A DNA stretch of 64,000 bases from Lacipirellulaceae bacterium. GTDB taxonomy: Bacteria > Planctomycetota > Planctomycetia > Pirellulales > Lacipirellulaceae. This document shows positions 9,097 to 48,629 of the stretch, piece by piece (position 1 is the first letter of the stretch; every line of letters starts with the position of its first letter). The DNA lies in the NCBI GenBank assembly GCA_040218535.1, contig JAVJRG010000005.1, positions 1,426,001-1,490,000 of the forward strand, in the 5' to 3' direction. A program made the position numbers and the translations under genes. Below the pieces are notes generated by a model. That model searched no databases, was not told the origin of the DNA, and saw only the letters and a program-made list of their open reading frames with translations.

Positions 9097-9153
9097 GGAG
9101 AATGAGAGCAATTTGTTGTTGAGGCTTGGGGTGCGATCCGTGGCTAAAGCAAT

Positions 9154-10218: not shown

Positions 10219-10250
10219 ATTCGATTCTTTCTTTCGTTGGTATCTGGTTT

Positions 10251-10284
10251 AGCCGCAGATGAACGCTGATCAACGCAGATTTTT
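10251..10284. repeat. GCCGCAGAT...CGCAGAT intergenic repeat, single arm
   Basis: AGCCGCAGATGAACGCTGAT followed by CAACGCAGATTTTT. The same pattern recurs as an inverted pair at 11978-12013 and 12069-12100. It lies upstream of the MoxR gene. Confidence 0.7.
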
Positions 10285-10356
10285 CCTGTTAGTGATTCGA
10301 GCGTTAGTTGTTCGTTTTTCTTTCTGTAGTATTGGATCACTGCTGCTACTGCGTGC

Positions 10357-11976: not shown

Positions 11977-11977
11977 T

Positions 11978-12100
11978 CTGGCCGCAGATAAACACGGATG
12001 AACGCAGATATTCTTTTCTTCAACCATTGAGAAAGGACTCTTGCGAGCAACAGCTATGATATACGAGCATCTGCGTCTATCAGCATTCATCTGCGGCTAT
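11978..12100. repeat. Inverted-repeat element with GCCGCAGAT arms
   Basis: Left arm 11978-12013 (GGCCGCAGATAAACACGGAT then GAACGCAGAT) and right arm 12069-12100 (ATCTGCGTCTATCAGCATTC then ATCTGCGGC) are imperfect reverse complements. The element fills the gap between the DUF1501 and EF-hand genes and has probably caused an artificial N-terminal extension of the EF-hand frame. Confidence 0.75.
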
Positions 12101-12118
12101 TCTAGTTGGGCAATTCGG

Positions 12119-30052: not shown

Positions 30053-33000
30053 TCGCCCATTTCCTGTTTAAGAATCCGCGGATTTTGTTGCTCCTTGTCG
30101 GCGTGATTGTCGTGGCGGGGCTGTCGTCATTCGTGTTGATGCCCCGGCTTGAAGATCCTGTGCTAGGGAAACGCGTAGCGGTCATTAGTACCGTCTTTCC
30201 CGGTGCGGATGCCGAGCGTGTCGAGTCGCTCGTGACCATTCGCATCGAGAACCAACTGCAAGGCATCGCGGAAATCAAGGAGATCCGCTCCAACAGCCGG
30301 ACAGGCATCGCCAACCTTGTCATCAAGCTGAGCGACGAGGTCGACGATGTTGAGGAAGTCTGGTCACAAGTCCGCAACAAGCTGGCAGATGTCGAGGCCG
30401 ATTTACCCACAGGTTGTTTCTCACCCGACTTCGAGATCTTTCCCCTCAAAGCGTTCGCTGCGATCGTCGCGGTGAAGTGGCGGGATGCGAGCGATCCTCA
30501 GCTTTCCATCCTACGCAAGCTGAGCAGCCAGCTTTGGCAACAAATCAGCAACTTGCCGGGCACCGAGTCGGTCGAAGAGTTCGGCAACCCCGGCGAAGAG
30601 TACCTGATCGAAGTTGAGCCGACCGTTTTGGTGGCGACGCAGCTGTCGACTGCGGCGATCGCTGGTCAAGTCTCGGCGAACATTGCAAGCCAGCCGGCGG
30701 GTTACGCGCGGGGCGACGATTCGCAGTTGTTGTTGGACCTCAAGCCAAGCGACTCGAACATCGACAAGCTGCGAGACTCGACCATCCGGTTTGGCCCGCG
30801 TGGCCAGTCAGTCCGGCTGAGGGAGATCGCCACCATCGAGAAGCGCACAATCACGCCAAAGACCGACGTCGCCCTGGTCGATGGCGAGCCGGGAATTGTG
30901 CTGGGCGCATTTTTCGACGACCGGCTACGTGTCGACCATTGGGCTAACTCCTTGCGAGAGCTCGTGGCGAAATTCCAAGACGACTATCAGGCCGAGCTCG
31001 ACGTTGAGATCATCTTTTCCCAACAGGAATTCATCGACGTCCGGCTAAACACCTTGCTGCAGAATCTATTCCTCGGCGCGGCGGGCGTCACGTGCGTCGT
31101 GCTGCTGTTGATGGGCTGGCGAAGCATGATTGTGGTGGGAGTGACTTTGCCGCTGTCTTCGCTCATGGTGCTGGCCGGGATGCGGACGATGGGAATCCCG
31201 ATGCATCAAATGTCGATCACCGGGCTCATCATCGCGTTAGGTCTGTTGATCGACAACGCGATTGTGATTGTCGAAGATGTCCGGGCAAGAATCTTCGGCG
31301 GCGAAACCACTCAGGATGCGATTCGCGAAAGCATTCGCCATCTAGCGATGCCGTTGTTCGGCTCGACGTTAACAACGACGCTCGCCTTCATGCCGATCGC
31401 CATCCTCCCCGGCCCCCCTGGCGAGTTTGTCGGGACGATTGCCATTAGCGTGATCCTAGCGATTAGCTCTTCGTTTCTCCTAGCGATGACCGTCGTGCCG
31501 GCGCTATTAGGCCTGATGCGAATCAGGACCGACCAACGCGGCACGTTCACCTATGGGATCACGAATCGACTGATTCAGTCGGTTTACGTTTGGTCCCTAA
31601 AGTTCGTTTTTCGCGTGCCGATCCTCGGTGTCGTGCTCGCATGCGCGTTGCCCTGCCTCGGCTACTGGGTGGCGGGGCAGTTGCCCAATCAGTTCTTTCC
31701 CCCCTCAGATCGAAAGCAAATCCAAATTGAAGTCGAATTGCCCGCTCGTGAGCCGATCGCCAAGACCCTCGCGACGGTCGAGACTTTACGGACGAGCCTG
31801 GTAAAGAATCCGGCGCTCGAACGTTTGCACTGGTTCATCGGGCGAAGTGCGCCGACATTCTATTACAACGTGGTCCCTAGCCGGCGAGGCACACCCTTCT
31901 ACGCGCAGGCGATTGCGGAACTTGCCGCGGGACAGAAGGCGACTGCCGCGGTACGCGCACTGCAATCCGAACTCGACGCCAACCACCCCGAATGTCGCGC
32001 AATTGTCCGCCAATTAGAGCAAGGTCCGCCAATCGACGCCCCCATTGAGCTGCGCCTGGTTGGACCGGACTTGCAGAAGCTTCAGGAATTGGGCAATCAG
32101 TTACGATTGCTCCTCAGCCAGACGCCGCACGTGATTCACACGCGTTCCGATTCGGAAGAGACAATCCCCAAGCTGATCGTCGATGTCGATGCCGAACAGT
32201 CGGCTCGGACGGGAAATAACGAAACTCAAATCGCTTCCCACCTTTACACGACGCTTGAGGGCGCACCGGCGGGCAAACTGCTCGACGGTGATGAGGAATT
32301 GCCGGTTCGCGTGCGAATGGCTAGCGAATCCACCACCGGGCTTGATCGCCTGGCCGCACTGCAACTCGGCAGTGGTCGTCCGACTCGACCAAGCGGTCCT
32401 CCCGGAACACCACCAGCCGCAAGTGTTGCTGCGCCCCTGGCAGCGATTGCGGATTTTGAGCTCGGTTCCGACGTGGCCGCTTTGGTGAGAATCGACGGTG
32501 AGCGAACCAACGAGATCAAGGCTTACTTAACCGCCGGAGTCTTGCCGGCGGTCGTGCTTGAGGACTTTCAACAACGACTGGCAGAGAGCGGCTTCCGTTT
32601 ACCACCGGGATATCGGCTTGACATTGGTGGCGAAGATGCGGAGCGTGCCAGCGCGGTCCAACGACTGGTAGCCAATGCGGGAGTGTTGTTCACGTTGATG
32701 ATTCTGACACTCGTCGTCTCGTTCCGCTCGTTTCGTTGTGCGTTGATCATTATTGTCGTTGGGGGCCTCACGATCGGTCTGGGGCCGTTGTCACTTTGGT
32801 TGTTTGGATTCCCCTTCGGTTTCATGGCGATTGTTGGCACGATGGGATTAGTTGGTCTGGCAATCAACGACTCGATTGTCGTGCTCGCGGCAATCCGCAA
32901 CAACGAGGCTGCCCGGCGTGGAGAAGTCTTGGCGTTAACGAATGTTGTCGTTAGCTGCACGCGACATATTATTGCGACAACGATCACCACGATCGTGGGG

Positions 33001-33135
33001 TTCCTACCGCTAATTCTCAGCGGTGGAGGGTTTTGGCCGCCTCTGGCGATCACGATCGCCTGCGGCGTAGGCGGGGCAACGCTAATGGCCCTGTACCTGG
33101 TCCCCTCTCTGACACGTCTATTACGTGTGAAGTAA
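30049..33135 (+). CDS. RND-family efflux permease (HAE1/AcrB type)
   Basis: 1028 residues. An N-terminal membrane helix (LLLLVGVIVVAGLSSFVLMP) is followed by the first periplasmic loop (PGADAERVESLVTIRIENQL), helices 2-6 with the proton-relay segment GLLIDNAIVIVEDVRARI, then a second periplasmic loop and helices 8-12 ending LTRLLRVK. The relay has DN where many pumps have DD. It uses the proton gradient to expel small amphiphilic molecules. Its position 236 bp before the aromatic-PKS cluster and same orientation make it a candidate exporter of that product; substrate otherwise unknown. Confidence 0.93.
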   Translation: MIAHFLFKNPRILLLLVGVIVVAGLSSFVLMPRLEDPVLGKRVAVISTVFPGADAERVESLVTIRIENQLQGIAEIKEIRSNSRTGIANLVIKLSDEVDDVEEVWSQVRNKLADVEADLPTGCFSPDFEIFPLKAFAAIVAVKWRDASDPQLSILRKLSSQLWQQISNLPGTESVEEFGNPGEEYLIEVEPTVLVATQLSTAAIAGQVSANIASQPAGYARGDDSQLLLDLKPSDSNIDKLRDSTIRFGPRGQSVRLREIATIEKRTITPKTDVALVDGEPGIVLGAFFDDRLRVDHWANSLRELVAKFQDDYQAELDVEIIFSQQEFIDVRLNTLLQNLFLGAAGVTCVVLLLMGWRSMIVVGVTLPLSSLMVLAGMRTMGIPMHQMSITGLIIALGLLIDNAIVIVEDVRARIFGGETTQDAIRESIRHLAMPLFGSTLTTTLAFMPIAILPGPPGEFVGTIAISVILAISSSFLLAMTVVPALLGLMRIRTDQRGTFTYGITNRLIQSVYVWSLKFVFRVPILGVVLACALPCLGYWVAGQLPNQFFPPSDRKQIQIEVELPAREPIAKTLATVETLRTSLVKNPALERLHWFIGRSAPTFYYNVVPSRRGTPFYAQAIAELAAGQKATAAVRALQSELDANHPECRAIVRQLEQGPPIDAPIELRLVGPDLQKLQELGNQLRLLLSQTPHVIHTRSDSEETIPKLIVDVDAEQSARTGNNETQIASHLYTTLEGAPAGKLLDGDEELPVRVRMASESTTGLDRLAALQLGSGRPTRPSGPPGTPPAASVAAPLAAIADFELGSDVAALVRIDGERTNEIKAYLTAGVLPAVVLEDFQQRLAESGFRLPPGYRLDIGGEDAERASAVQRLVANAGVLFTLMILTLVVSFRSFRCALIIIVVGGLTIGLGPLSLWLFGFPFGFMAIVGTMGLVGLAINDSIVVLAAIRNNEAARRGEVLALTNVVVSCTRHIIATTITTIVGFLPLILSGGGFWPPLAITIACGVGGATLMALYLVPSLTRLLRVK

Positions 33136-33371: not shown

Positions 33372-35057
33372 ATGCCGCCAGCCGCTACACAAAGGGTAGG
33401 CACCAGCAGCAACGCCTTGATCGATGGAAGTCCACTCAGCATCAACCAGGTTGCTGCCATCGGACAAGGACATCGCCAGTTGCAACTCAGCGAGGACGCT
33501 GCGCTGCGCGAGCGGATCACCGCGGCGGCGGAACTCGTCGACCATGCCGTTGAAAAAGGGTGGCCCGTCTACGGAGTGACGACCGGCTTCGGTGGCATGT
33601 CAAACCTAGCCGTGCCTTGCGATCAAGCGGCTGCTTCCCAGCAGAACCTCTTGTCGTTTCTGGCAACAGGAGCTGGCTCACCAATCGACCCTCGTCATGT
33701 GCGGGCAGCGATGGCCTTGCGTGCCAACGTGCTCATGCAAGGTTATTCCGGCGTGCGTTTGGAAATCATCCAGCGACTTATTACCTACTTGAACCGAGGC
33801 GCAACGCCGGTCGTTCGCGAGTTGGGTTCGATCGGAGCAAGCGGGGACCTTGTGCCGCTTTCGGTAATTGCTCGAGCGATCACCGGTCATAGTAACTTCG
33901 TCAAAGTGCAAATCGATGGCCGCACTCTCGACGGACCGGCTGCACTTCGCGAACTCGATCTGGAGCCTATCGAGTTACGCCCCAAAGAAGGCCTTGCGCT
34001 AGTCAACGGGACGTCATTTAGTTCCGCAATCGCTGCGAATTGTGTCGCTGAAGCACGGCGACTCATGGCATTGGCCTTCGGCGCGCAGGCAATCATGCTT
34101 CGTGCCTTGAACGTGCAGGACGAGCCGTTTGCCGCCTTTGTTCACCAGCGTAAGCCACACCAAGGACAGGTCTGGTCTGCGAAAATCATGCAGCGGCTGC
34201 TCAACGAAGGGCGGGAATCGCTCAATGGCAGCGCCCATAAGGAGCTACCGTCCGAGCATATTCAAGATCGCTATTCGCTGCGCTGCTTGCCGCAGTATTT
34301 CGGGCCAATCGTCGAAGGCTTGGCTCGGGTGATCAACGTTGTTGAGACTGAAATGAATGCCGTCTCTGACAACCCGCTCGTTGATGCGGAGAATGGTCGT
34401 TTCTATCAGAGTGGGAATTTTCTTGGTCAGTACGTTGGTGTCGCGATGGACGACCTCCGCCGTCACCTCGGGCTGATGGCCAAACATCTCGACGTGCAGA
34501 TCGCCTCGCTGGTCACCCCGGCATTCAGCAACGGCCTGCCTTCTTCGCTGCGCGGCAACGACGCGCTACCCTACAACATGGGCCTCAAGGGGCTACAGAT
34601 CACCGGCAATTCGATCATGCCAATGCTCACATACCTTGGCAATCCATTGGTCGAACACTATCCGACACACGCAGAGCAATTCAACCAAAACATCAACGGG
34701 CTGAGTTGGGGCGCTGCCAATTTCGCCTGGAGGTCGGTCGAGCTGTTCCAGCATTATCTGGCAGTGGCCTTGTTGTTTTCTGTGCAGGCTATTGATTTGC
34801 GTGCCAAAGCAACACTCGATCACTTCGACGGTCGAGCATTACTGGGCAGCTTGCTCGCACCACTCTACACGAAAGTCTGTGAAGCCGTTGGCAGCGAATC
34901 TGGTCAGGAACGCCCGTTCCTGTTCGACGACGCGGACCAATGGCTTGAACAACATCTGGCAACGCTTCACGAGAACATTGCTGCACATGGGAGTGTCGTA
35001 AGTGCCGTTCAGCCGGTACTCGACTCGTTCGACGAATCTCCGCTCTGTCGAGGGTGA
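33372..35057 (+). CDS. MIO-type aromatic amino-acid ammonia-lyase, phenylalanine-lyase-like
   Basis: 561 residues. The MIO cofactor triad Ala-Ser-Gly lies at 156-158 in GSIGASGDLVPLS; the catalytic lid Tyr is Tyr67 in YGVTTGFGG. Long segments resemble cyanobacterial phenylalanine ammonia-lyase (HIQDRYSLRCLPQYFGPIVEG, THAEQFNQNINGLSWG, NMGLKGLQITGNSIMP). The selectivity pair after QQNLL is Phe96-Leu97, as in phenylalanine lyases, not the Ser-His of histidine lyases or the His of tyrosine lyases. It would deaminate L-phenylalanine to trans-cinnamate; an aminomutase is possible. It is the first gene of the PKS cluster and its stop overlaps the alternative GTG start of the ligase, so cinnamate as starter is the natural inference. 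Confidence 0.88.
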   Translation: MPPAATQRVGTSSNALIDGSPLSINQVAAIGQGHRQLQLSEDAALRERITAAAELVDHAVEKGWPVYGVTTGFGGMSNLAVPCDQAAASQQNLLSFLATGAGSPIDPRHVRAAMALRANVLMQGYSGVRLEIIQRLITYLNRGATPVVRELGSIGASGDLVPLSVIARAITGHSNFVKVQIDGRTLDGPAALRELDLEPIELRPKEGLALVNGTSFSSAIAANCVAEARRLMALAFGAQAIMLRALNVQDEPFAAFVHQRKPHQGQVWSAKIMQRLLNEGRESLNGSAHKELPSEHIQDRYSLRCLPQYFGPIVEGLARVINVVETEMNAVSDNPLVDAENGRFYQSGNFLGQYVGVAMDDLRRHLGLMAKHLDVQIASLVTPAFSNGLPSSLRGNDALPYNMGLKGLQITGNSIMPMLTYLGNPLVEHYPTHAEQFNQNINGLSWGAANFAWRSVELFQHYLAVALLFSVQAIDLRAKATLDHFDGRALLGSLLAPLYTKVCEAVGSESGQERPFLFDDADQWLEQHLATLHENIAAHGSVVSAVQPVLDSFDESPLCRG

Positions 35058-35095
35058 GCAAGGCGACCTTACGATCACCGGGTCGACGAGAGTTT

Positions 35096-37114
35096 ATGAA
35101 TATTTGCGAACACTTGACCGCCGCGGCAAAACGCTTGCCCGACAAAGAGGCGATTGTCTTTGAAGGCCAGTCGTTCTCTTTCGCGCAGCTCGAACAACTT
35201 TCGGCTCAAGCAGCAATGCGACTCAGCGAGGCAGGTGTGGGGCGTGGCGATCGGGTGGCAATCATGTTGCCCAATGTGCCCGCGTTTGTCGTGTGGTACT
35301 ACGCCTCGCTCCGACTGGGGGCGATTACCGTGTCGATCAGCACTCGCCTCACCGAGAAAGAAGTCGCCTTCGTGGTTTCCGATTGTGAAGCAACAGCATT
35401 CGTCGCTGACACGGAAACTATTCAAAAGCAAACGGAGTACCTCCCCGACTGCGTCGCCAAGACATTCGGCGTTTCTGACTGGGCCGACCAATGTAACGGA
35501 GAAAAGCTGAAGGATTCACCCGACGGAGAAATCTCAGATTGGATCGATGCAGATCCCGACGAAGCCGCACTGATTCTATACACATCAGGCACAACGGGTT
35601 TCGCCAAAGGCGCGACGCTATCGCACAACAATGTGCGTTCCAACGTGCTGGAATTTAACCGTCTCTGCGACATGCAGCCCGACGATCGTATTTTGATCGC
35701 GGTGCCGCTGTTTCATTGCTTTGGTCAGAATGCGTTGTTGAACTCAGCGTTTAACGTTGGTGCAACGCTCGTGTTGCAGCGTGGCTTCGATATCAACGAG
35801 TCGAAACGCTTAATCAAGCAGCAGAAGGTGACGCAACTCTACGGCGTCCCGACGATGTTCCAGCTCTTCAACGAGAGTTGCACGCCCGCAGACCTTGCGT
35901 CGGTGCGTTACTGCTTCTCGGCGGCTGCCAAGCTTCCAATCCAGGTCAGTCGTCACTGGCTAGAGAAGTTCGACCAGCCAATCTATGAAGGCTACGGCCT
36001 CACAGAAACCTCGCCGTTTGCCAGTTACAACCACCAAGAGGACTACGTGATGGGCTCGATTGGCACGCCTATCGATCAAGTCGAGATGAAGATCGTCGAT
36101 TCCGAGACCGGCGAGACCTGCCAGCCAGGAGAGTTGGGTGAGATCGCCATCCGCGGACCGAACGTGATGCTTGGTTACTGGAATCGGCCTGATGAAACCG
36201 CTAGCGCGATTCGCGATGGTTGGTTTCACTCGGGTGACATCGGTCGCCAGGACGAGCAGGGTTTTTTCTATATCGTTGATCGCGTCAAAGACATGATCGC
36301 GGTCGGTGGGTTGAAGGTCTACCCGGCTGAGGTAGAGCGAATCCTGCTCGACCACGCGACGGTCTCGCAAGCCGCTGTGGTAGGGTTACCGGATGACGTT
36401 TTCGGCGAGCGCGTGGTGGCGTTCGTGGTATTGACGCCTCAAACAGCAACCAACGGTGCTGACCTGCATGAGCAACTGCAACAGCATTGCCGCGACAACT
36501 TGGCGAGTTACAAAGTGCCAAGGCAGTTTGTGCCGACCGAGGAATTACCCCGCAACCCCTCGGGTAAAGTTCTCAAAACAAAGCTGCGTGAGGTCGACCT
36601 GAGCAGCGAAATCTCGACCGCTGCAACTTCCACCGACGAGTTGGCAGCGCACCTAGCCGCTTCCTCTCCCGCGACGCGCGAGCCAACGCTCTGGCCTGAG
36701 TTGAAAAAGAGTTATGCGACCAATCGCCCGCAAGTCGCCACCGAGTTTATACAAAACATGCTTCAGGTGCTCAGTGGTGAGGACGACCGCTTGGAACCAG
36801 ACGCGCGGTTCTTAGAGGCAGGGCTCGACTCGCTGATGATCGTCGAAATGAGTAGCCAGATCCAAGCAGAAGTCGGCCCGACTTGCGAAATCCCGGCGAC
36901 ACTACTGTTCGACTACCCACGCGTTTGCGACTTAGCGGAGTTCCTGGTCCAGACTTTTACAGCGGACGAGCAGCCGTCATCACTCCCCACTAATGACTTG
37001 CCAGAGACCGCGTCAGCGGCCAGTCGCGAACTCGCCACCTTGCGACAAGAGGTGGCTGCAATGTCCGAGGACGAAGCACTCCAAGAGCTCATGAGAGAGC
37101 TTGAAAGTAGCTGA
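35096..37114 (+). CDS. Aryl/acyl-AMP ligase fused to an acyl carrier protein
   Basis: 672 residues from the ATG at 35096 (a GAGAG lies 5-9 bp upstream); a GTG at 35054 overlaps the preceding stop and would add 14 residues. The adenylation domain carries LYTSGTTGFAKGATLSHNN (P-loop), YEGYGLTETSPF, the GWFHSGDIG and FFYIVDRVKDMIAVGGLKVYP hinge motifs and the NPSGKVLKTKLRE catalytic Lys. After a linker, an ACP follows with the phosphopantetheine Ser579 in EAGLDSLM. It most likely activates cinnamate as the adenylate and loads it onto its own carrier for hand-over to the PKS. It is 58 bp before the PKS. Substrate is inferred from the neighbouring ammonia-lyase. Confidence 0.9.
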   Translation: MNICEHLTAAAKRLPDKEAIVFEGQSFSFAQLEQLSAQAAMRLSEAGVGRGDRVAIMLPNVPAFVVWYYASLRLGAITVSISTRLTEKEVAFVVSDCEATAFVADTETIQKQTEYLPDCVAKTFGVSDWADQCNGEKLKDSPDGEISDWIDADPDEAALILYTSGTTGFAKGATLSHNNVRSNVLEFNRLCDMQPDDRILIAVPLFHCFGQNALLNSAFNVGATLVLQRGFDINESKRLIKQQKVTQLYGVPTMFQLFNESCTPADLASVRYCFSAAAKLPIQVSRHWLEKFDQPIYEGYGLTETSPFASYNHQEDYVMGSIGTPIDQVEMKIVDSETGETCQPGELGEIAIRGPNVMLGYWNRPDETASAIRDGWFHSGDIGRQDEQGFFYIVDRVKDMIAVGGLKVYPAEVERILLDHATVSQAAVVGLPDDVFGERVVAFVVLTPQTATNGADLHEQLQQHCRDNLASYKVPRQFVPTEELPRNPSGKVLKTKLREVDLSSEISTAATSTDELAAHLAASSPATREPTLWPELKKSYATNRPQVATEFIQNMLQVLSGEDDRLEPDARFLEAGLDSLMIVEMSSQIQAEVGPTCEIPATLLFDYPRVCDLAEFLVQTFTADEQPSSLPTNDLPETASAASRELATLRQEVAAMSEDEALQELMRELESS

Positions 37115-37172: not shown

Positions 37173-40100
37173 ATGACCGAGCAACCGAACAATCAACTTT
37201 CGCCGAATAAGCAAGCACTGCTGAAGATCCGTGAACTCAAGCAGCTACTTGCGGAAGCTCAGCAAGGTGCTGCTGAGCCGATCGCGATTGTCTCCATGGC
37301 TTGCCGCTTTCCGCGTCGCTCGCGCACGCCCGAGGAATTTTGGAAATGTCTGCTGGAGCGGACCGACGAGGTCAGCGAGATTCCCGAAGATCGCTGGGAC
37401 TTAGACGCCTTCTACGATGAAGATCCGGAAGTCCCAGGCAAGATGTACGCTCGCCAAGGAGTGTTTCTCGACAACCTCGATCTGATGGATCCCGAGTTCT
37501 TTGGCATCTCGCCGCGCGAGGCGACGTGGGTCGATCCACAACAGCGACTGCTGATGGAAGTTGGCTGGGAAGCACTCGAAAGGGCCGGTTGGCCAGCCGA
37601 AAAGATCGGCGAACAGACAGGTGTGTTCGTTGGTTGGATGCACAACGACTACCAGAACGAAGCCAGCGATTCATTCCTGAATCTGAACCCGTACATTGCC
37701 ACGGGTGCCGCCGGTAGTTTCCTGTGTGGACGGCTTGCTTACTATCTTGGCTTACAAGGCCCCAGCCTTGCGGTCGACACGGCATGCTCCTCATCGCTCG
37801 TAGCACTGCACTTGGCATGTCAAAGTCTGCAGCGCGGCGACTGCGAGCGTGCGTTGGTCGGCGGCGTAAACGCCATCGTCTCACCGACGACAAATATTCT
37901 AACGTGCAAGCTTAAAGCCCTTTCACCAAATGGGCACTCGCGCGCGTTCGACGCGGCTGCCGATGGTTACCTTCGTGGTGAAGGTTGTGGTGTTGTGACC
38001 TTGCGGAAACTGTCTGATGCCCAGCGCGCTGGCGATCCCATCTTGGGGATAATTCGCGCGACGGCTGTTGGTCACAATGGCACCAGCAGCGGACTCACGG
38101 CACCTAATCCCAAGGCGCAAGAGAAAGTCATTCGCCAGGCGCTCGAACGAGCAGGAATCACCGCGTCGGACGTCGCGTATCTCGAAGCACATGGCACGGG
38201 GACCGAACTGGGCGATCCGATCGAAATCCAGGCCGCGGCCGCCGCACTCGCGCAGGCACGCGACGCGGATAATCCACTGCTGGTGGGCTCGGTAAAAACG
38301 AACATCGGGCACCTTGAGGCAGCGGCGGGAATGGCTGGGCTGATCAAAGTGTTGCTGGCCATGGAGCATCAGCAGATCCCGGCTCAGTTGAATTTTGACG
38401 AACCGAATCCGCACATCCCCTGGGACAAACTGGCCGTCAAGGTGGTCACCGAAGCAACCGACTGGCCGAGCAATGGTGAGAAGCGCATTGCCAACGTCAG
38501 CGCCTTCGGCATGAGCGGCACGAATGCGCACGCCGTCATTGAAGCACCTTCTAAGAATGAAATTCAGGTGCCCGTGACGGCGGAAATAAAGCAATCCAGC
38601 GAACCCAAGTTGGTTGTTTTGAGTGCGAAGAGTGAGGAGGCACTTCAGGAATTCGCCGAAGGATTCGAGCAACATCTTTCCAGCAGCGAACAAGATCTGG
38701 CAGACATTGCCTATACGACCTGCGTGGGTCGCAGCCATATGGACCAGCGTGCGGCGCTTGTCGTACGTGACCGAGAGCAGGCGATCAATGAATTGAAGAC
38801 CCTTGCCCGGCTCGGCAAATCCAATTCGCTTTTCGTTGGCAATGGTCGACGTGCCCCTAAAGTCGCTTGGCAGTTCACCGGTCAAGGTTCGCAATACGTC
38901 GGGATGGCTCGCGGACTTTATTCGTCGCAAGAGGTCTTTCGAGAAGCCATCGACCACTGCGATCAATTGCTGCAGCAGTGGCGTCAGGCGTCGCTCACCG
39001 AGGTGATGTTCGAGCACCCTGAACTGATCAACCATACAAGCTGGACCCAACCGGCAATTTTCGCCGTCCAAATGGGGCTTGCCCGACTGCTAGAAAGCTG
39101 TGGTTTGAGGCCCGCTGCTGTCCTCGGCCACAGTGTCGGTCAGTACGCAGCAGCCTGCGTCGCGGGCATCATGACCTGGGACGAAGGGTTACATCTCATC
39201 AGCGAGCGCGGTCGGCTGATCGGCGAATTGCCCGCGGGTGGTCGCATGCTGGCCGTGTTCGCGCCGCCTGCTGAAGTCGAAAAGGGCATTGAGAGCGTTG
39301 CTGAAGTCTCATTGGCCGCACTCAATGGCACCCATACCGTTATCAGCGGAACCGAAGCGGCGGTCGCCGAGGTCGAAAAGGAGTTCGCCGCACGCAACAT
39401 CAAAACGAAGGCGCTGACGACCTCACATGCGTTCCACTCCGCACTGATGGACCCCGCCCTCGCACCCTTCCAGGCGGTCGCTGATCAGGTGGAGTTTCAG
39501 CCGGGCAGCCTGCCGCTGGTCTGCAATGTCACAGGTCAAGCGCTGGCGGCGGATGCGGTGCTTGACGGTGCTTATTGGGCGAAACACATTCGCGAAGCGG
39601 TTCGCTACGCCGACGGGATCGAAGCCGTCCAACAACTTGGTTGCGACGTGGTGTTAGAGCTCGGCCCGCAGGCGGTGCTGACGCGCATGGCCGCCGCGAA
39701 TTGGAAACAGCCCGCCACTGGACTGATTAGTTGCTTGCAAAGGGGCGGCGAAGATGCGAATTCGTTGCTGCAAGCAATCGGACAGTTGTATGTTCACGGC
39801 GCGACACCCGATTTCGATGCGGTTTACGCGCGCAAGGATGTAAGACGTGTCGTCCTGCCAACCTACCCCTTCCAAAGACGTCGTTTCTGGGGGCCGGACA
39901 AGCCACGTGCGTTCCATGCCGAGTTCCACACGGCCCACCCGCTCTTGGGCAGCAAGGTATCGTTGGCCGGTATCAAAGATGAAACACGCTACGAGAGTTT
40001 CATCGAACCCGATAGCCCGCCTTGGTTGCCCGATCATGAAGTGATGGGCCACACGGTTGTGCCAGGTGCCGCGTATGTCGAAATGGCATTGGCGGCGGCG

Positions 40101-43100
40101 GGGCATTCTTCGGTGAGTGAACTGGCTTTCGAGCAGCCGCTCAGGCCTGCCTCTCGTACGGCATTGCAAACCATTGTGCGACAGAATGATGACGGTCAGA
40201 AGACGCTCGAGGTTTTTTCCACGCCCGCCGGTGAAAACAATTGGACGCGGAACTGCTCCTGCAAGTTCGACGAGACGCCAGGCGAACGCCCCGAAGCGAT
40301 TGATCGCAGCAAGCTCGAAGCCGCCTGCCCTGAAACGGCCTCGCCCGAGGATTTCTATCGCAAAATGCAAGAGTTGGGGCTCAACTATGGGGCGAAGTTC
40401 CAGACGATCGCGTCGATTCACTATTCAAAGGAAGCCGTCCTCACGCATTTGAAGACCGTGGGCGACATCCGCGGATTCACGATCCCCCCGACGCTTCTCG
40501 ACGGAGCACTACATTCCCTGGCGGTGGGCCTACTTCGCGACGACGACGAGAACCTCTACCTGCCGGTCGGCATTGGCAAGTGCACCGTGTTCCAAGCGAT
40601 CGAAAGCGAAGCTTGGTGTTACGCGAAATGGAAACAGTCAGAGGGAAAACTCCGTACCGCCGACATCACGCTGCTAACCGAAGCGGGCCAAGTTGTCGCC
40701 GAAATCGAATCACTCCAGGTGCAACAGATCAACCGTGCAGCACTGCGTCAGCTCAGCGGTGCTGGTCCCGAGCGGCTGCTCTACAACTTCGCTTGGCAGA
40801 GTTTCCGCCTACCGCCAGCCACAACGAAACAAACCAAGTGGTTGGTCGTCTCGACGGACCAGTCTGATGATTCGCTGGCCAGCCAAGTGGCGTCGAGGCT
40901 CAAGTCTCAAGACCACTCAGTGGTTCAACTTTCCCTGACGAGCAACACCGATTTCGAGCAGTTGTCTGATTCGCACTTTGCGATGTGCCGAGAGGAACTC
41001 GCCAACTGGGAACAGCTATTCGACGTGTCAGCCGCACCCGACGGTATCGCCTGGATCTTCGACTGCCATCAGCAGGCCAGTAATCAAACGGACGGTGGCG
41101 GCGGCGGCGAACTTCCCGAGACGACGAAGCTTCAATGCACGGGCCTGTTGAACCTGATCGCAACGCTGCAGAAGCGTAACTTACGAAAGCTCGAATGCGG
41201 ACTTCAGCTTGTCACCAGCGATGCGATCGCCGCCAAGGAAGCCGCGACAGTCGATGCTCATCAGTCACAATACTGGGGCTTGGGTCGCGTGCTGGGCGCT
41301 GAACATCCCGAAATGCGTTGCCGTGTCATTGATCTTGCCTCCGAAGAGTCAGCGACGACGGAGACGGTCGGTGCCGTCGTTGATATTCTGCTGACCGAAA
41401 CCCACGACAGCCAGTTAGCCATTCGCGCTGGGCAGTTCACGGTACCGCGACTGAATCAGGCGGCCGTTTCCCGCAGGTCGGGACCACCCCTGCAAGTTCA
41501 TCCAGACGCCAGCTATCTGATCACCGGCGGCTTGGGAATGCTGGGCCGGCAGGCTGCCAAGTGGTTGGCGGAGAAGGGAGCCAAGCAGGTCGTGCTCGTT
41601 TCCCGACGCGAGCCCGACGCGCCAACCCAGGAATTCCTCAACACGATCGAGACGCTCGGCTGCCAAGTCGTTGTCCACACTGCAAGCCTCAGCTCAGCGG
41701 ACGACGTCAAGACGCTCTTCGACCGCTTCGGCAACGACCTCAACCCACTAGTCGGCGTCATCCATGCCGCGGGTGTGCTCGACGACGGGCTGATTGGCGA
41801 TCAAACCTGGGAACGGTTCGAAAAGGTGCTCGCACCAAAGATCATTGGTGCAACCCTTTTGCACGAATTCACGAAGTCATTACCGCTCGACTTCTTTATC
41901 CTGTATTCTTCCGCGGCTTCAGTACTGGGCTCGCCGGGGCAAAGCAACTACGCGACCGCCAATGCCTATCTCGATGGCTTGGCTTGGCAGCGGCGCGCAC
42001 TTGGTTTGCCGGCCCTCAGCATTAATTGGGGACCGTGGACCGAAGGAATGGCCGACGACGAGCGAATTCTCAAACGCTTGTCGTTGCAGGGCATCACCCC
42101 GCTGGCCGTCAGCGAAGCGCATGATGCGATGGAAAAGATGTTGGCTGCCGATCTTGTGCAGACGACCGTGATGGATGTCGATTGGCAGCGAATGCGGATG
42201 GGCATGGGTGGCGAGTCTCCCGCTTTGCTCGCGGAGTTGGTCTCCACCAAACAGAAATCGCAGGCAGGCGAATCGGAGTTAGTCGTCAAGCTGAAACGAC
42301 TCCGCGGTGATGCCCAAAGAAAACTGTTGGTCACGACGATCCAAAACACCTTGCAAGGGATTCTCTCTACCCCGGACCTTCCGGAAACGGATCGTCCCCT
42401 GATCGAGATGGGTCTCGATTCCTTAATGGCGGTCGAGTTCGGCACGGAACTGCAATTGCTTCTCGGCGACCAAATGGGCATCGGACCCACGATGCTGTTC
42501 GACCATCCGACGATTGACGCGATCTCTGATCATGTCTTGGAATTGATCGTCAGCGATGCGGAGGAGACTTCTAACGAATCAAGCGAGCCGGCCAAGCCGC
42601 TCGCTGAGACGGCGCGGGCCGAACGCGAAGATGTCGCGATCGTTGGTATGAGCTGCCGTTTCCCTGGGGCACGCGACCTCGACGAATTCTGGCAGAACTT
42701 ACTCAATCAGGTCGATTCGGTTCGTGAAATTCCGGATGACCGTTGGGACATCGATCGCTTCTACAGTGCCGACCGCGAGCCTGGCAAGATGTATACGCGC
42801 GAGGGCGGTTTCCTCGAAGACATCGCGGACTTCGACGCGGAGTTTTTCAATATCTCGGATCAAGAGGCTTGCTGGATCGATCCGCAACATCGCATGCTGC
42901 TCGAAAATAGTTACCGGGCTCTCGAAGATGCCGGCATTTCGCCGCACCCGTTGACCGACGCAAACGTCGGTGTGTTCATGGGCATCATGGGCCAAGACTA
43001 CGCTTTTCTGCCAAGCCTTGACGACGAAGAAGTGATCCGCGAGTTCCGCGGTGCCGGCCTCTCACACAGTGCCGGCGTGGGACGCATCAGCTACCTCTTT

Positions 43101-45191
43101 GGCTTCGAAGGTCCAAGTGTCGCCGTCGATACGGCAAGCAGCAGTTCCCTGGTCGCACTCTTCCAGGCAGTACGAAGTCTGCAGGACGGCAACTGCAATA
43201 TGGCACTCGCCGGGGGCGTCAACGCGATTCTGGCACCGGTCAATTCGCTGCTCATGTCGAAGGCCGGATTGTTGTCTCCCGATGGTCGTTGTCGTTCGTT
43301 TTCGGCCAGTGCTAACGGCTTCGGTCGGGGCGAGGGCTGCGGGGTTGTCGTGCTCAAACGATTGAGCGACGCCCAACGCGACGGCGATCGCGTCATGGCA
43401 GTCGTGCGGGGTGGCGCGGTCGTCCACAACGGATTCACCGGAGGCATCACGTCACCCAGCAGCAAATCACAAGCACGCGTCATCGCCGAAGCACTCAAGG
43501 ACGCCCGCCTCGCACCCTCGCAAGTCCAGTACTTGGAGGCGCACGGCACAGGCACCGAGTTGGGCGACCCGATGGAGTTGGCTGCCGCGTCGTCGGTCTA
43601 CGGCAAGGGGCGCAAGCCCGACGAACCATTGCTGGTAGGCTCGGTCAAAGCGAACATCAGCCATCTCGAAGCAGCCGGCGGGGTGTCGGGCTTGATCAAA
43701 ACCGTACTTGCTTTGCATCACGGTATTCTCCCACCGCAAATGCACTTCGACGAGCCAAGCTCGCATATCCCCTGGAGCCGTCTGCCTGTGAAGATGGTCA
43801 GCGAACAGACGACGTGGCCGGAAACGGAGCAACGCGTCGCCGGGGTGACCGCTCTGGGACTGGTTGGGACGAACGCTCATGTGATTCTCAGTTCGTCCGC
43901 GAATATTGCCAACGAGGGTGAAGCTGATGAAACGATGCTCGCCTCACCAAGACCGACCCAACTCCTCGTATTGAGCGCCCGCAGCGAGATCGCACTACAG
44001 GAGCTTGTGGTAAAGCACTTCGATTACCTAAGCGATCATCCCGAAGTCGATCTGGCAGACTACTGTCATACCCTGGCGACCGGACGACGCCACCACGAAT
44101 ACCGCACTGCACTGACCGCGTCGTCGCGGGAAGAGATGTTAGAGCGACTCGCCGAGGGAATCGACCAAGAACCATCCGGGCCGTCGTTTCATCGCAACGG
44201 TAGTGCCTCCCAAAACGGCGCACACATGAACGGGGCGACCGGCGGCTCCGAACCACGACAATCGAACGCTGCGATGAGCCATTCGACATCAGCTCCAAAA
44301 ATCTCCTGGCTGTTCGGCGACTTCAGCACCACGACCTTCGAGAGAGGACGCGAACTGTATCGCGCCGAACCCGTCTTCCGCGAGTTGATCGCCAGCTTCG
44401 ACCAGCGTTTGGCAGAACACTCAGCGGCGACCAACCAATCGCACGCTCCTCTTGAGGAATGGTTCACGAGCGAAACCAATGCGAACCAGTACAGCGAAGT
44501 TCACACTTTCGCCGTGCAAGCAGGCCTGGCGAAAGTCTGGGAATCGTGGGCCATCGAGCCTGAGGCTGTGGCTGGCTTCGGAGTGGGTCAGTATATAGCC
44601 GCGTGCGTAGCGGGCGGATTGTGCTTCCTCGATGCGCTGACGCTAGTGGTCCAGCGGCAGGAGATACTCACTCAGAAACAGTCGCTCTCCCAAGCCGACC
44701 AAAGCGATGAGCTGAGAGCCGCACTCGACGAATTTGAGACTTTCGCCGATACCATCAACTACTATCCGCCCAACCTGCCGCTGATTTGCAGCTCCAGTGC
44801 CTCCATCGTCCCCGTGCATCGTTCACTTGGCGGCAGCTACTGGCGGCAACACTGCTTGGACGTTCCTCAAATAGAGGAAAGCATCGAAACACTTATCCAG
44901 CAGGGAGCCGATTACATTCTCGAGCTCGGAACGGTAGATGCTGCGAAACCAAACGACAACACAGCGACATGGTTGCCCTCTCTGGACGACAACACCGATG
45001 CGACGACCTCTATGCTAGCTGCCCTCGGGCAGTTGTACTTAGCCGGAGCACTGCCCGACTTCAAACAGTTCAACGGCCACTGGCAATTTGAAAAACTGAG
45101 CTTGCCGACTTATCCCTTCCAGAAGAAACGCTACTGGATCACGGAGATCTCGGATCACGTCGAGCGACCGGCAGAACCTATTCAGAGTTAG
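37173..45191 (+). CDS. Type I polyketide synthase, KS-AT-DH-KR-ACP plus inactive KS-AT tail
   Basis: 2672 residues. Domains: KS about 34-458 with Cys205 (DTACSSS), and His motifs EAHGTGT and NIGHLEAA; AT about 566-860 with Ser654 (GHSVG) and HAFHS, the malonyl-type motif; DH about 922-1200 with His955 (HEVMGHTVVP) and Asp1110; KR with GGLGMLG near 1450, Ser1580, Tyr1593 and an LDD motif (B-type); ACP with Ser1750 (GLDSLM). No enoylreductase is seen. A second KS (about 1820-2240) has Ser1989 in place of Cys (DTASSSS) though both histidines remain (2124, 2164). A following AT-like region has Gly2470 for the active Ser (GFGVG), lacks HAFHS and is shortened. No ACP or thioesterase follows. It would give unsaturated chains on an acyl-ACP starter, probably iteratively. 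There is one active module. Confidence 0.9.
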   Translation: MTEQPNNQLSPNKQALLKIRELKQLLAEAQQGAAEPIAIVSMACRFPRRSRTPEEFWKCLLERTDEVSEIPEDRWDLDAFYDEDPEVPGKMYARQGVFLDNLDLMDPEFFGISPREATWVDPQQRLLMEVGWEALERAGWPAEKIGEQTGVFVGWMHNDYQNEASDSFLNLNPYIATGAAGSFLCGRLAYYLGLQGPSLAVDTACSSSLVALHLACQSLQRGDCERALVGGVNAIVSPTTNILTCKLKALSPNGHSRAFDAAADGYLRGEGCGVVTLRKLSDAQRAGDPILGIIRATAVGHNGTSSGLTAPNPKAQEKVIRQALERAGITASDVAYLEAHGTGTELGDPIEIQAAAAALAQARDADNPLLVGSVKTNIGHLEAAAGMAGLIKVLLAMEHQQIPAQLNFDEPNPHIPWDKLAVKVVTEATDWPSNGEKRIANVSAFGMSGTNAHAVIEAPSKNEIQVPVTAEIKQSSEPKLVVLSAKSEEALQEFAEGFEQHLSSSEQDLADIAYTTCVGRSHMDQRAALVVRDREQAINELKTLARLGKSNSLFVGNGRRAPKVAWQFTGQGSQYVGMARGLYSSQEVFREAIDHCDQLLQQWRQASLTEVMFEHPELINHTSWTQPAIFAVQMGLARLLESCGLRPAAVLGHSVGQYAAACVAGIMTWDEGLHLISERGRLIGELPAGGRMLAVFAPPAEVEKGIESVAEVSLAALNGTHTVISGTEAAVAEVEKEFAARNIKTKALTTSHAFHSALMDPALAPFQAVADQVEFQPGSLPLVCNVTGQALAADAVLDGAYWAKHIREAVRYADGIEAVQQLGCDVVLELGPQAVLTRMAAANWKQPATGLISCLQRGGEDANSLLQAIGQLYVHGATPDFDAVYARKDVRRVVLPTYPFQRRRFWGPDKPRAFHAEFHTAHPLLGSKVSLAGIKDETRYESFIEPDSPPWLPDHEVMGHTVVPGAAYVEMALAAAGHSSVSELAFEQPLRPASRTALQTIVRQNDDGQKTLEVFSTPAGENNWTRNCSCKFDETPGERPEAIDRSKLEAACPETASPEDFYRKMQELGLNYGAKFQTIASIHYSKEAVLTHLKTVGDIRGFTIPPTLLDGALHSLAVGLLRDDDENLYLPVGIGKCTVFQAIESEAWCYAKWKQSEGKLRTADITLLTEAGQVVAEIESLQVQQINRAALRQLSGAGPERLLYNFAWQSFRLPPATTKQTKWLVVSTDQSDDSLASQVASRLKSQDHSVVQLSLTSNTDFEQLSDSHFAMCREELANWEQLFDVSAAPDGIAWIFDCHQQASNQTDGGGGGELPETTKLQCTGLLNLIATLQKRNLRKLECGLQLVTSDAIAAKEAATVDAHQSQYWGLGRVLGAEHPEMRCRVIDLASEESATTETVGAVVDILLTETHDSQLAIRAGQFTVPRLNQAAVSRRSGPPLQVHPDASYLITGGLGMLGRQAAKWLAEKGAKQVVLVSRREPDAPTQEFLNTIETLGCQVVVHTASLSSADDVKTLFDRFGNDLNPLVGVIHAAGVLDDGLIGDQTWERFEKVLAPKIIGATLLHEFTKSLPLDFFILYSSAASVLGSPGQSNYATANAYLDGLAWQRRALGLPALSINWGPWTEGMADDERILKRLSLQGITPLAVSEAHDAMEKMLAADLVQTTVMDVDWQRMRMGMGGESPALLAELVSTKQKSQAGESELVVKLKRLRGDAQRKLLVTTIQNTLQGILSTPDLPETDRPLIEMGLDSLMAVEFGTELQLLLGDQMGIGPTMLFDHPTIDAISDHVLELIVSDAEETSNESSEPAKPLAETARAEREDVAIVGMSCRFPGARDLDEFWQNLLNQVDSVREIPDDRWDIDRFYSADREPGKMYTREGGFLEDIADFDAEFFNISDQEACWIDPQHRMLLENSYRALEDAGISPHPLTDANVGVFMGIMGQDYAFLPSLDDEEVIREFRGAGLSHSAGVGRISYLFGFEGPSVAVDTASSSSLVALFQAVRSLQDGNCNMALAGGVNAILAPVNSLLMSKAGLLSPDGRCRSFSASANGFGRGEGCGVVVLKRLSDAQRDGDRVMAVVRGGAVVHNGFTGGITSPSSKSQARVIAEALKDARLAPSQVQYLEAHGTGTELGDPMELAAASSVYGKGRKPDEPLLVGSVKANISHLEAAGGVSGLIKTVLALHHGILPPQMHFDEPSSHIPWSRLPVKMVSEQTTWPETEQRVAGVTALGLVGTNAHVILSSSANIANEGEADETMLASPRPTQLLVLSARSEIALQELVVKHFDYLSDHPEVDLADYCHTLATGRRHHEYRTALTASSREEMLERLAEGIDQEPSGPSFHRNGSASQNGAHMNGATGGSEPRQSNAAMSHSTSAPKISWLFGDFSTTTFERGRELYRAEPVFRELIASFDQRLAEHSAATNQSHAPLEEWFTSETNANQYSEVHTFAVQAGLAKVWESWAIEPEAVAGFGVGQYIAACVAGGLCFLDALTLVVQRQEILTQKQSLSQADQSDELRAALDEFETFADTINYYPPNLPLICSSSASIVPVHRSLGGSYWRQHCLDVPQIEESIETLIQQGADYILELGTVDAAKPNDNTATWLPSLDDNTDATTSMLAALGQLYLAGALPDFKQFNGHWQFEKLSLPTYPFQKKRYWITEISDHVERPAEPIQS

Positions 45192-45220
45192 TGTCATTCA
45201 AAATTGACGACGGAAGCAAG

Positions 45221-46843
45221 ATGAAAGAGCATAAACCATACGATGTGGTAATCCTCGGCGGCGGGCTGGCGGGTCTGACGTTGACCAAACAGTTGCTGAT
45301 GAAGCGCCCCGAAACGCGGATCGCCGTGATCGAAAAGCGGACCTTTCCCGTGTCAGAGGCAACGCACAAAGTGGGCGAGTCGTCGGTCGAAATCGGCGCC
45401 CATTATTTTGCCGAGGAGCTGCAGCTCAAAAAACATCTGACCGATCACCAGTTGCCAAAGTTCGGCCTTCGCTTTTTCTTCAAAGAAGCCTATCAGTCGC
45501 TTGCCGAAGGAACCGAAGTTGGGGGAAGCCACTTTTTCTCGGCACCCAGCTATCAGATTGATCGCGGACGCTTCGAAAACTACTTGGCGGAGACCGTCAC
45601 GGAAATGGGGGCCACGATCCTCAGCGGTTCAATGCTGCGAGAAGTCCACCTGGAATCAGCCGACGGAAAATCCTCACCGACAGACCATCGCGTTGTCGTT
45701 ACGCGCGACGGCGACGAGCAAACCTTGCACGCCCGTTGGGTGGTCGACGCGAGCGGTCGAGCGAGTTTCTTGAAACGCAAACTGAATCTTTCCGAGGATC
45801 TCAACCACGACATTAACGCCGTTTGGTTCCGAATCGACGAGACCATCCAGATCGACCAGTGGTGTGACGACCAAAATTGGCAGGTGCTCACCGGTAAAGT
45901 AGCCCGCCGATGGCTGAGTACGAATCACTTGATGGGCGAGGGCTACTGGGTCTGGCTGATTCCGCTAGCCAGTGGCTCGACGAGCATCGGCATCGTGGCT
46001 GATCCGCGTATCCACGCCTTACGCGACATCAACAGTTTTGAAAAAGCCCTAGCTTGGCTCGACAAACACGAGCCCGAGTGCGCCGAGAGCATTCGCCCAC
46101 ACCGCGAGAAAATGCAAGACTTCCTGGCCATCAAAAAAATGTCGCGTGGTGCACGCCAGGTGTTTTCCGCCGATCGGTGGGGCCTTGTGGGCGAAGCGGC
46201 TGCGTTTCTCGATCCGTTCTACTCGCCTGGCAGCGACTTCATTGCCATTGGCAACGCGATGGTCGGTAAACTGATCGATGAAGACCTCGCGGGACGCCCC
46301 ATCGAGCACCTAGCCCCCACACTGCAAAGTGTTTTCCTCACGCTCTTCCAAAACAACCTGCTCACCTACCGCGATCAGTATCCGCTGTTCGGCAACCCGC
46401 GCATCATGGCGCTGAAGTTCGTCTGGGACTATGCCGTCTACTGGGGCTTTCCGGCCCTGTTGTACTTCAACGGCAAGCTGACCGACGTTGGGTTCATTCA
46501 GTCGCTCGCCAAGGGGATCGAAGAAATCCGCGAGATGAACTTGAAGATGCAGCAGTTTTTCCGCGGCTGGTACGAGGCCGACCCGACGGTACGGGCCGAG
46601 TCCGCGTTTGTCGATCAGAGCCAAATTGAATTGATGACCCGCCTCAACGCCGAGCTGCGCGAGAAGCTCGACGATGCCGCATTGAAAGCACGCTTCGCTG
46701 ACAACGTCAATTTGATCCGCGACCTAATGTACGAGATCACCGACCGCATCCAACGCGTGCAACCAGCCGTCCAAACGGATATCCCCGAACGCACGGCAAC
46801 GGAGAATCGCCTAGAAAACGTGTTCGAAGTTTTGAACATTTAA
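45221..46843 (+). CDS. Flavin-dependent halogenase-like protein 1
   Basis: 540 residues from the ATG at 45221 (GGAAG 4 bp upstream); a GTG at 45191 overlaps the PKS stop and adds 10 residues. FAD-binding GGGLAG lies at 13-18, and KVGESSVE is the GES-type motif of halogenases. The FDH signature WxWxIP is at 243-248 (WVWLIP) and FxxPxxSxG at 329-337 (FLDPFYSPG). Lys80 in LPKFG sits about where the catalytic Lys of halogenases is expected. These motifs separate FDHs from ordinary FAD monooxygenases, so halogenation of an aromatic or polyene substrate is possible; an oxidase or dehydrogenase role is not excluded. A paralogue lies next door. No flavin reductase gene is seen. Confidence 0.85.
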   Translation: MKEHKPYDVVILGGGLAGLTLTKQLLMKRPETRIAVIEKRTFPVSEATHKVGESSVEIGAHYFAEELQLKKHLTDHQLPKFGLRFFFKEAYQSLAEGTEVGGSHFFSAPSYQIDRGRFENYLAETVTEMGATILSGSMLREVHLESADGKSSPTDHRVVVTRDGDEQTLHARWVVDASGRASFLKRKLNLSEDLNHDINAVWFRIDETIQIDQWCDDQNWQVLTGKVARRWLSTNHLMGEGYWVWLIPLASGSTSIGIVADPRIHALRDINSFEKALAWLDKHEPECAESIRPHREKMQDFLAIKKMSRGARQVFSADRWGLVGEAAAFLDPFYSPGSDFIAIGNAMVGKLIDEDLAGRPIEHLAPTLQSVFLTLFQNNLLTYRDQYPLFGNPRIMALKFVWDYAVYWGFPALLYFNGKLTDVGFIQSLAKGIEEIREMNLKMQQFFRGWYEADPTVRAESAFVDQSQIELMTRLNAELREKLDDAALKARFADNVNLIRDLMYEITDRIQRVQPAVQTDIPERTATENRLENVFEVLNI

Positions 46844-47003: not shown

Positions 47004-48629
47004 ATGGAACAACAAACCGACCTCACAATTCTCGGTGGTGGCTTGGCAGGGCTCTCGCTAGCGCTGCAAGTGCGGCAAGAAGCTCCGCAGGCCAACATCA
47101 CGGTACTCGAGAAACGCAAACACCCCGTTCCCGAAGCGGCCCACAAGGTGGGTGAATCCACGGTCGAAGTCGCCGCCCACTATTTCGGACGCGTACTCGG
47201 CCTGCGCGATCATATTCTCGACCAGCAATTACCCAAGCTCGGCTTACGGTTCTTCTTTCCCTCGGGCGACAATTCACGAATCGAGAACCGCTTGGAACTC
47301 GGCGGTAAGCGTTACGCGCCGTGTCCGAGCTACCAACTCGATCGCGGACGCTTCGAAAACTTCCTCGCCGATCGCTGTTTGTCACAAGGGATTCGCTTCC
47401 TTGACCGTGCTGATATTCAATCGATCGAGATCAATCGCCGCGGCACGCACCAAGTGACCTTCGAGACCGAGGGCAACACTGAGTCCGTTGATGCACGTTG
47501 GGTCGTCGATGCCAGCGGTCGCCGCGCTTTCCTCAAACGGCAACTCAAACTCGAAAAGTCGTCGCCGCATCGGGCAAGCTCCGCCTGGTTTCGTTTCGCA
47601 AAGCACATCAAGATCGACGATTGGTCTCAGGACCCCGTCTGGAGCGAAGGGCACGAGGGTAAGACGGGGCGTTGGTACAGCACGAATCATCTGATGGGCC
47701 AAGGTTACTGGGTCTGGATGATTCCGCTGGCGTCGGGCTCAACGAGCATGGGCATCGTTGCCGCCGAGGAATTCCACTCGCTCTCGAACTTCAACTCGAT
47801 GGATAAAGCGCTCGCCTGGCTCGAACAGCACGAGCCGCAATGCGCTGCCGCGGTCAGAGAAAACCTGGACGAACTGCAAGACTTCCGTGCGATCAAGCAT
47901 TACGCCACCGAATGCAAACAAGTGTTTTCTGGTCGTCGTTGGGGCATCACCGGCGAGGCCGGCTTTTTCCACGATCCGTTCTACTCGCCCGGCAGCGATT
48001 TCATCGCGTTCTCCAACACGTTCCTAACCGATCTGATTCGCCGGGACCTCGCTGGCAAGGAGTTTCGCATTCGCGCGTTCTCGTACGACCGTATCTTCAA
48101 ACGGTTCTACTACGGCACGAAAACCGCCTACCAAGACCAGTACTGCCTGTTCGGCAACCCAACGGTCATGCCCGTGAAAATCCTGTGGGACTATCTGATC
48201 TACTGGTCAATCACCGGCTTCATTTTCATGCAAGGCCGGATCTGCCATCAGACGATGTACCTGCGCAACATGTCGAAGCTGTCGAGACTCGGCAAGCTGA
48301 ACCACTTTATGCAAGACTTCTTCCGCCAATGGCATCAGGCAACCGCCGACGACCAGTCGACCGGCGCGATCAACATCTCCGAGATGCCGATCATCCGCCA
48401 AATGAACACTCGCCTGCTCGAAGAAATGAGCAACCCTCAATTCTTCAGCCGCTTCAACACCAACCTGGAGCAACTAGAAACACTCGCCTGCGAAATCGTC
48501 GCCCAATCCGGCCAAAACATCAGTTGCCCCTTCCGCCGCCACTCCAAAGCCGCGGTCCTCGACGATACTTTCCAGCCGGTGTTCAACCCAAAGCCGAACG
48601 TCTCGTCACCGGCGGCGGTTGGGGTTTAG
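47004..48629 (+). CDS. Flavin-dependent halogenase-like protein 2
   Basis: 541 residues, a paralogue of the preceding gene along its full length. FAD motif GGGLAG at 11-16, GES-type motif KVGESTVE near 48-55, Lys78 in LPKLG, WVWMIP at 236-241 and FHDPFYSPG at 322-330. The conserved segment order and shared C-terminal features ([14 protein letters not shown]) support a tandem duplication followed by divergence. Function as for protein 1: probable halogenase-family flavoenzyme acting on the cluster product. It is separated from protein 1 by 160 bp containing the hairpin repeat. The last clear member of the biosynthetic cluster. Confidence 0.85.

Follow-up and report, generated by a model that had tools for sequence, protein, structure and literature searches.

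Described systems closest to the C-terminal KS-AT tail

Ketosynthase (KS) domains in which serine replaces the active-site cysteine while the catalytic histidines are kept (KSS domains) are found in the loading modules for nystatin, pimaricin/natamycin, rimocidin, oocydin and alpiniamide, and are regarded as non-elongating; those for nystatin, rimocidin, pimaricin and oocydin, with Cys→Ser and His-His, are described as decarboxylases (PMC12843615, PMC6113372). These domains are N-terminal and feed an acyl carrier protein (ACP), and the cis-AT ones stand next to a working acyltransferase (AT). Chain-length factors (CLFs, or KS-beta; type II polyketide synthases, ApeC and synthases of the PUFA/heterocyst-glycolipid type) are likewise KS paralogues without the cysteine, placed beside an active KS. 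Typically they carry glutamine and have lost the histidines, and they are half-length in aryl polyene systems, which use a KS-CLF heterodimer (PMC8358021); in the xanthomonadin-type CLF, the glutamine at the cysteine position (Q166) is essential (PMC3691225).

Other KSs release chains. CalA3, from the calcimycin pathway, is a separate protein with a terminal KS-AT, an inactive AT followed by DH and KR domains, and no ACP of its own; its KS, with cysteine and His/Lys/His, performs amidation (an amide with 3-hydroxyanthranilate) or hydrolysis, and the C197A substitution abolished amidation and increased hydrolysis 4.46-fold (PMC10006239). In TAS1, a fungal NRPS-PKS making tenuazonic acid, a lone C-terminal KS with a Cys-His-Asn triad, directly after a carrier domain and with neither an AT remnant nor an ACP behind it, carries out the releasing cyclisation (PMC4640141).

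The window analysed here is a stretch of 64,000 nucleotides from a Lacipirellulaceae bacterium (Planctomycetota; GCA_040218535.1, contig JAVJRG010000005.1, positions 1,426,001 to 1,490,000 of the forward strand), and it encodes a type I PKS that ends in a KS-AT tail. To our knowledge, no KSS-type domain has been described before at a C terminus behind an ACP. In ten planctomycete lineages, the Cys→Ser KS of this tail is held as tightly as an active KS, yet it lies at the far end of the protein. It bears on two open questions, namely how chains leave thioesterase-less single-module PKSs and how rounds are counted in type I systems, and it appears to mark an uncharacterised phenylalanine-derived, possibly halogenated aryl-polyketide pathway in Planctomycetota.

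Domain organisation of the PKS and active-site state of its tail

The PKS (37173..45191, + strand, as for all the features below; 2672 aa) occupies a single open frame and has the order KS1-AT1-DH-(psiKR)-KR-ACP-KS2-AT2, as read with Pfam and nine orthologues. Motifs and Pfam identified a catalytic KS1 (37275..38546; C205, H340, K375 and H380) and an intact, malonyl-type AT1 (38868..39803) with GHSVGQ and HAFHS (aa 752). The DH (39936..40748) and KR (41508..42044) domains were assigned with Pfam, which recognised KS twice, DH and KR once each, and a single PP-binding domain (aa 1722-1788). The last of these is the ACP (42336..42536; MGLDSLMAVE at aa 1746), the sole carrier domain of the PKS, and it is directly followed by KS2 (42627..43898). 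AT2 (44301..45092) comes next, with the post-AT linker YPFQKKRYWI C-terminal to it.

The original prediction, made from the sequence alone, was that KS2 has serine for the active cysteine while keeping both histidines. Direct reading of the codon (AGC at 43137-43139) confirmed S1989, and motif searches recovered H2124 and H2164, together with K2159. It was also predicted that AT2 has lost its active serine, the preceding histidine and the HAFHS motif, and that it is shortened. All these points were borne out by codons, motifs and alignment with AT1: G2470 (GGA at 44580-44582) lies inside GFGVGQ where AT1 reads GHSVGQ, phenylalanine stands for the histidine, HAFHS is confined to AT1 by motif search, and approximately 60-75 residues, HAFHS included, are missing between the nucleophile helix and "FETFAD". 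We take the missing stretch to be the small AT subdomain. The C terminus lacks an ACP, as proposed: Pfam found no domain of any kind beyond AT2 in the window PKS, and the protein ends after AT2 in 10/10 orthologues.

The description of the tail as catalytically dead holds in part. The cysteine for ordinary elongation is gone, but KS2 keeps His, Lys and His. Because it has Ser-His-His (with the lysine kept, 10/10) instead of the Cys-His-His elongation triad, it was not classed as an elongating KS.

Conservation and selection

Searches of Planctomycetota genomes and of named genomes yielded a set of ten orthologues, all from Planctomycetia and including named Pirellulaceae MAGs (the window PKS and loci L039, L040, L041, L062, L063, L064, L065, L066 and L068). 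The named genomes were scanned by alignment with AT2, which offers a single C-terminal motif and brought up many ordinary ATs; L066, L067 and L068 were the only true orthologues, and L067 (Planctomycetaceae MAG), apparently the same sequence as L064 (G687 locus), was left out of the ten. Within the family to which the window belongs, the genomes sampled lacked the tail, and its distribution is therefore patchy.

KS1 is C-H-K-H and KS2 is S-H-K-H in all ten proteins, and the AT2 serine is glycine in all ten, with phenylalanine, valine, threonine or tryptophan for the preceding histidine. The cysteine is present in 112 of the 113 other KS domains collected during the searches, so the substitutions in the tail, fixed in every orthologue, are not due to chance. 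Homologues with an intact Cys and Ser, which would have pointed to local decay, were not found among the ten. Mean pairwise identity across the ten PKSs was 0.79 for KS1, 0.76 for KS2, 0.56 for AT1 and 0.34 for AT2, and dN/dS, from two close pairs, was 0.04-0.06, 0.03-0.035, 0.09-0.15 and 0.22-0.26, respectively. By these estimates, purifying selection on KS2 is as strong as that on KS1, and AT2 is relaxed, so the KS is the part of the tail kept by selection and AT2 is a decayed shell. The claim that the tail is selected for a role other than ordinary elongation is thus upheld, and the tail, judged by its substitutions, is a preserved working part, probably in release or measurement of the chain, and not a decayed leftover.

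It could be argued that the tail is a drifting, functionless relic of a second module, since every orthologue has a degraded AT2 and AT shortening to AT0 forms is widespread among unrelated PKSs. We consider this very improbable, given the dN/dS of KS2 and the retention of the same Ser and Gly across lineages in which the tails are only 51-61% identical to that of the window. Local decay or a pseudogene was ruled out by the 10/10 conservation and dN/dS, and a sequencing error by the occurrence of the same state in independent genomes.

Further changes are fixed around the KS2 active site in the ten sequences. Relative to KS1 and most other KSs, the glycine before the second histidine is serine (NIGH→NISH). 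The SxFG loop reads GVTALG, with Ser→Thr and Phe→Leu fixed; after the first histidine, Ile→Met and Leu→Tyr/Phe are fixed; and FDA has Asp→Ser, and Leu→Phe occurs twice immediately ahead of the active-site strand. This pattern suggests specialisation of KS2.

Gene neighbourhood and likely pathway

Upstream of the PKS lie genes for an RND periplasmic adaptor (28883..30052; beside the cluster in four fetched orthologous loci), an RND transporter permease (30049..33135; in six fetched orthologous loci besides the window), a MIO-type aromatic amino acid lyase (33372..35057) and an acyl-CoA ligase with a fused C-terminal ACP (35054..37114; Pfam and homology). The lyase is closest to phenylalanine ammonia-lyases (PAL) and has Phe at the selectivity position (NLLSFLATG); it is the probable source of a cinnamoyl starter, which the ligase-ACP probably activates and loads. 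Lyase and ligase were found in 9/10 loci; in L068 they were not beside the PKS within the stretch examined.

Downstream of the PKS, two paralogous FAD enzymes of the halogenase superfamily (45191..46843, with WVWLIP and HKVGES; and 47004..48629, with WVWMIP) adjoin it. The flavin-dependent halogenase motifs WVW[LM]IP and HKVGES are present in both window proteins and in most orthologues, and both are putative halogenases. A relative of these flavoenzymes occurs in another planctomycete, in a type II aryl-polyene-like cluster containing KS genes, a ketoreductase, LolA and MMPL (L151, 1924-19277). At best, the product can be guessed to be a phenylalanine-derived, aryl-polyene-like and possibly halogenated compound; a literature search for a planctomycete lyase/PKS/halogenase cluster returned no match. 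Around the clusters, the stretches that we examined showed no thioesterase.

The two flavoenzyme genes flank the PKS gene in 10/10 loci, always next to a tail-bearing PKS, and AT2 has degenerated with its fold kept. Both points are consistent with a purely structural platform, a KS-AT0 dimer that either lends stability to the megasynthase or provides a docking site for the two halogenase-like enzymes. A scaffold would, however, need neither an invariant Ser, His, Lys and His nor a dN/dS as low as that of an active KS, and we regard such a role as rather unlikely.

Origin of KS2 and a possible pairing with KS1

The KS1 and KS2 clades are each monophyletic (support 1.0; 60/60 bootstraps, with bootstrap trees built by FastTree), and they grouped together with moderate support (0.91 and 0.89; 30/60 bootstraps). 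KS2 is thus probably a duplicate of KS1, and the tree is most simply read as duplication of KS-AT within the PKS. Two outgroups lie nearest to this pair of clades: the first KS of L145, a PKS from another member of Planctomycetia, and the KS of a Gemmatimonadetes PKS (L121), which has a C-terminal Cys-KS followed by a dead AT.

The original prediction considered a fused, CLF-like partner of KS1 to be a plausible reading of the tail. On this reading KS2 would pair with KS1, within or between chains, shape its tunnel and thereby fix chain length, in the manner of KS-beta in type II systems. KS2 is indeed a KS paralogue without cysteine beside an active KS, and its probable sister relationship with KS1 recalls a KS-alpha/KS-beta-like duplication. 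The equal conservation of the two domains and the occurrence of flavoenzyme relatives in a type II aryl-polyene-like cluster also speak for this reading. A further point in its favour is the dimer-interface loop, a substrate gatekeeper in cis-AT KSs (PMC11321453), which differs consistently between the two domains in all orthologues, with GWMHNDY in every KS1 and GIM[GS][QS]DY in every KS2. On the other side, KS2 has serine (10/10) and not the glutamine that is essential in the xanthomonadin-type CLF, it keeps His-Lys-His, and it is full-length with an AT remnant; by comparison, another protein of this genome carries a genuine fused CLF-like domain, from which the cysteine and both histidines have been lost. 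Moreover, each KS of a type I PKS normally homodimerises, which counts against KS1-KS2 pairing, and we know of no precedent for two KS domains of one chain, 1784 residues apart, forming a hetero-pair. What stands of the proposal is a Cys-less paralogue that groups, with moderate support, with KS1; the glutamine and the loss of the histidines that mark CLFs are missing. We regard a CLF-like role as doubtful. The fuller scenario, in which a type I PKS reinvented KS-alpha/KS-beta in one polypeptide by duplication of KS-AT and Cys→Ser change in KS2, with KS1 pairing setting the length of an aryl-polyene-like chain, appears to us unlikely to a slightly greater degree.

The methionine at position 2 of the loop is kept in both KS1 and KS2. 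It corresponds to the residue of the VMYH motif that is linked to alpha,beta-unsaturated chains, and would be compatible with enoyl or polyenyl chains in either domain.

The synthase with the CLF-like domain lies outside the window (G000:C12, ~974265-976568; L004, L006). It is a protein of 2643 aa of the PUFA/heterocyst-glycolipid kind, with a tandem KS and CLF-like pair and then an AT; the second domain of the tandem reads VDAGECSSD at the cysteine, has no AHGTGT equivalent and has IGN for IGH.

Predicted fold and similarity to KSS loading domains

Modelled with 86 related KS-AT sequences, the tail (mean pLDDT 91.6, pTM 0.93) shows a complete KS-AT didomain fold; this model replaced an earlier one from eight close homologues, which had a mean pLDDT of 52.6 and was poor in the KS. 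The model aligned with the CurL KS-AT didomain (4mz0) over 784 residues (Z 61.4, rmsd 2.9 Å). The KS-AT fold and linkers of CurL-like cis-AT KSs were recovered both in this model and by Pfam (KS, KS_C, CurL-like and linker domains). KSQ-AT didomains were tied with CurL among the closest folds. The highest-ranking rows of the fold comparison contained no CLF structures, which carries no weight, and a shared predicted fold does not tell us about function.

With serine for the active cysteine and both histidines kept, KS2 has the residues of KSS domains. It might accordingly decarboxylate malonyl-ACP, so as to produce an acetyl starter or to free the ACP of malonyl groups that have stalled on it, as the described activity of the KSS loading domains and the closeness of the KSQ-AT folds would allow. 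The setting is different, however: KSS domains belong to N-terminal loading modules and have a working AT and their own ACP to feed, whereas the tail is C-terminal, behind an ACP, with glycine in its dead AT and no ACP after it. In addition, the cluster already has a starter route in its PAL-like lyase and ligase-ACP. Decarboxylation by KS2 is thus improbable in our view.

A terminal KS as a possible release station

A KS downstream of an ACP normally receives the chain of that ACP. Given the position of KS2, its retained nucleophile and His/Lys/His, and a cluster with no visible release enzyme, we favour the reading that it is a terminal, non-elongating KSS that offloads the ACP-bound chain, with a probability of roughly 0.35. 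The established part of this reading comprises the sequence state of the tail, its conservation, selection, cluster content and predicted fold; the release role itself we infer, partly on the precedent of CalA3 and TAS1. Malonate units would be added by KS1-AT1-DH-KR-ACP to the starter, probably cinnamoyl, giving an enoyl or a polyenyl product. Once a single round or several had been completed, the chain would pass from the ACP to the following KS2, which would be unable to elongate it, having a dead AT, no ACP of its own and a serine nucleophile. The serine and the retained His/Lys/His may then offload the chain, either hydrolytically or onto an acceptor. The tail would thus be the release station of a thioesterase-less enzyme, with AT2 retained to support the structure of the KS-AT didomain. 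In favour of this reading, S-H-K-H is found in 10/10 orthologues, dN/dS of KS2 is as low as that of the active KS1 with AT2 relaxed, and the further fixed changes around the KS2 active site suggest specialisation.

Like CalA3, with which it was compared by description, the tail is a terminal KS-AT with no ACP of its own, an inactive AT and His/Lys/His in the KS; it differs in lacking the cysteine and the DH and KR after the AT, and in being part of a larger protein. KS2 shares with the terminal KS of TAS1 its C-terminal position, a carrier domain immediately before it and the absence of an ACP downstream, and differs in its triad and in the AT remnant that follows. With these precedents, release is, by analogy, at least as strongly indicated as a CLF-like role. 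The TAS1 loop GVTSLG shares Phe→Leu with GVTALG of KS2, a likeness of one residue that is also found in the ordinary PKS ClbI (8xjy).

Several points weigh against the release reading. We know of no natural KSS with demonstrated release activity, and PKS chains have other exits, through trans thioesterases, uncatalysed hydrolysis or enzymes encoded elsewhere. The CalA3 (C197) and TAS1 KSs keep the catalytic cysteine where KS2 has serine, and the characterised or proposed KSS domains are loading-module decarboxylases (PMC12843615, PMC6113372).

Other PKSs with shortened or inactive ATs

A further counterpart in layout is the L145 PKS (4458-12914), organised as ligase-ACP-KS-(AT remnant)-DH-ACP-KS-AT. 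Its terminal KS also has serine for cysteine (NTASSSA) and is followed by a shortened dead AT (GHDAGVF); it differs from KS2 in having glutamine for the first histidine and histidine for the lysine, groups elsewhere in the tree and has other neighbours. Parabeggiatoa, Desulfobacteraceae, Nostoc and Leptolyngbya also have shortened dead ATs; these lie within ordinary Cys-KS modules, so AT shortening alone is not special. In the Candidatus Parabeggiatoa PKS (L069, 8252-12688), a KS precedes a shortened dead AT (GNGVGEY), behind which lies another AT-like domain (GYSLGEY, HAFHS).

Terminal KS-AT0 units with an intact KS cysteine were found in Komarekiella (L071), Gemmatimonadetes (L121), Amycolatopsis (L113) and Smithella (L137), which hints that ACP-less terminal KS units form a wider class. 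The Smithella MAG protein (3466-7875; 1470 aa) is a stand-alone ligase-ACP-KS-AT0 whose shortened, dead AT closes the chain; the stretch examined contains no further PKS gene close by. The cyanobacterial protein of Komarekiella (8498-11074; 859 aa) is a stand-alone KS-AT0 with tyrosine for the second catalytic histidine.
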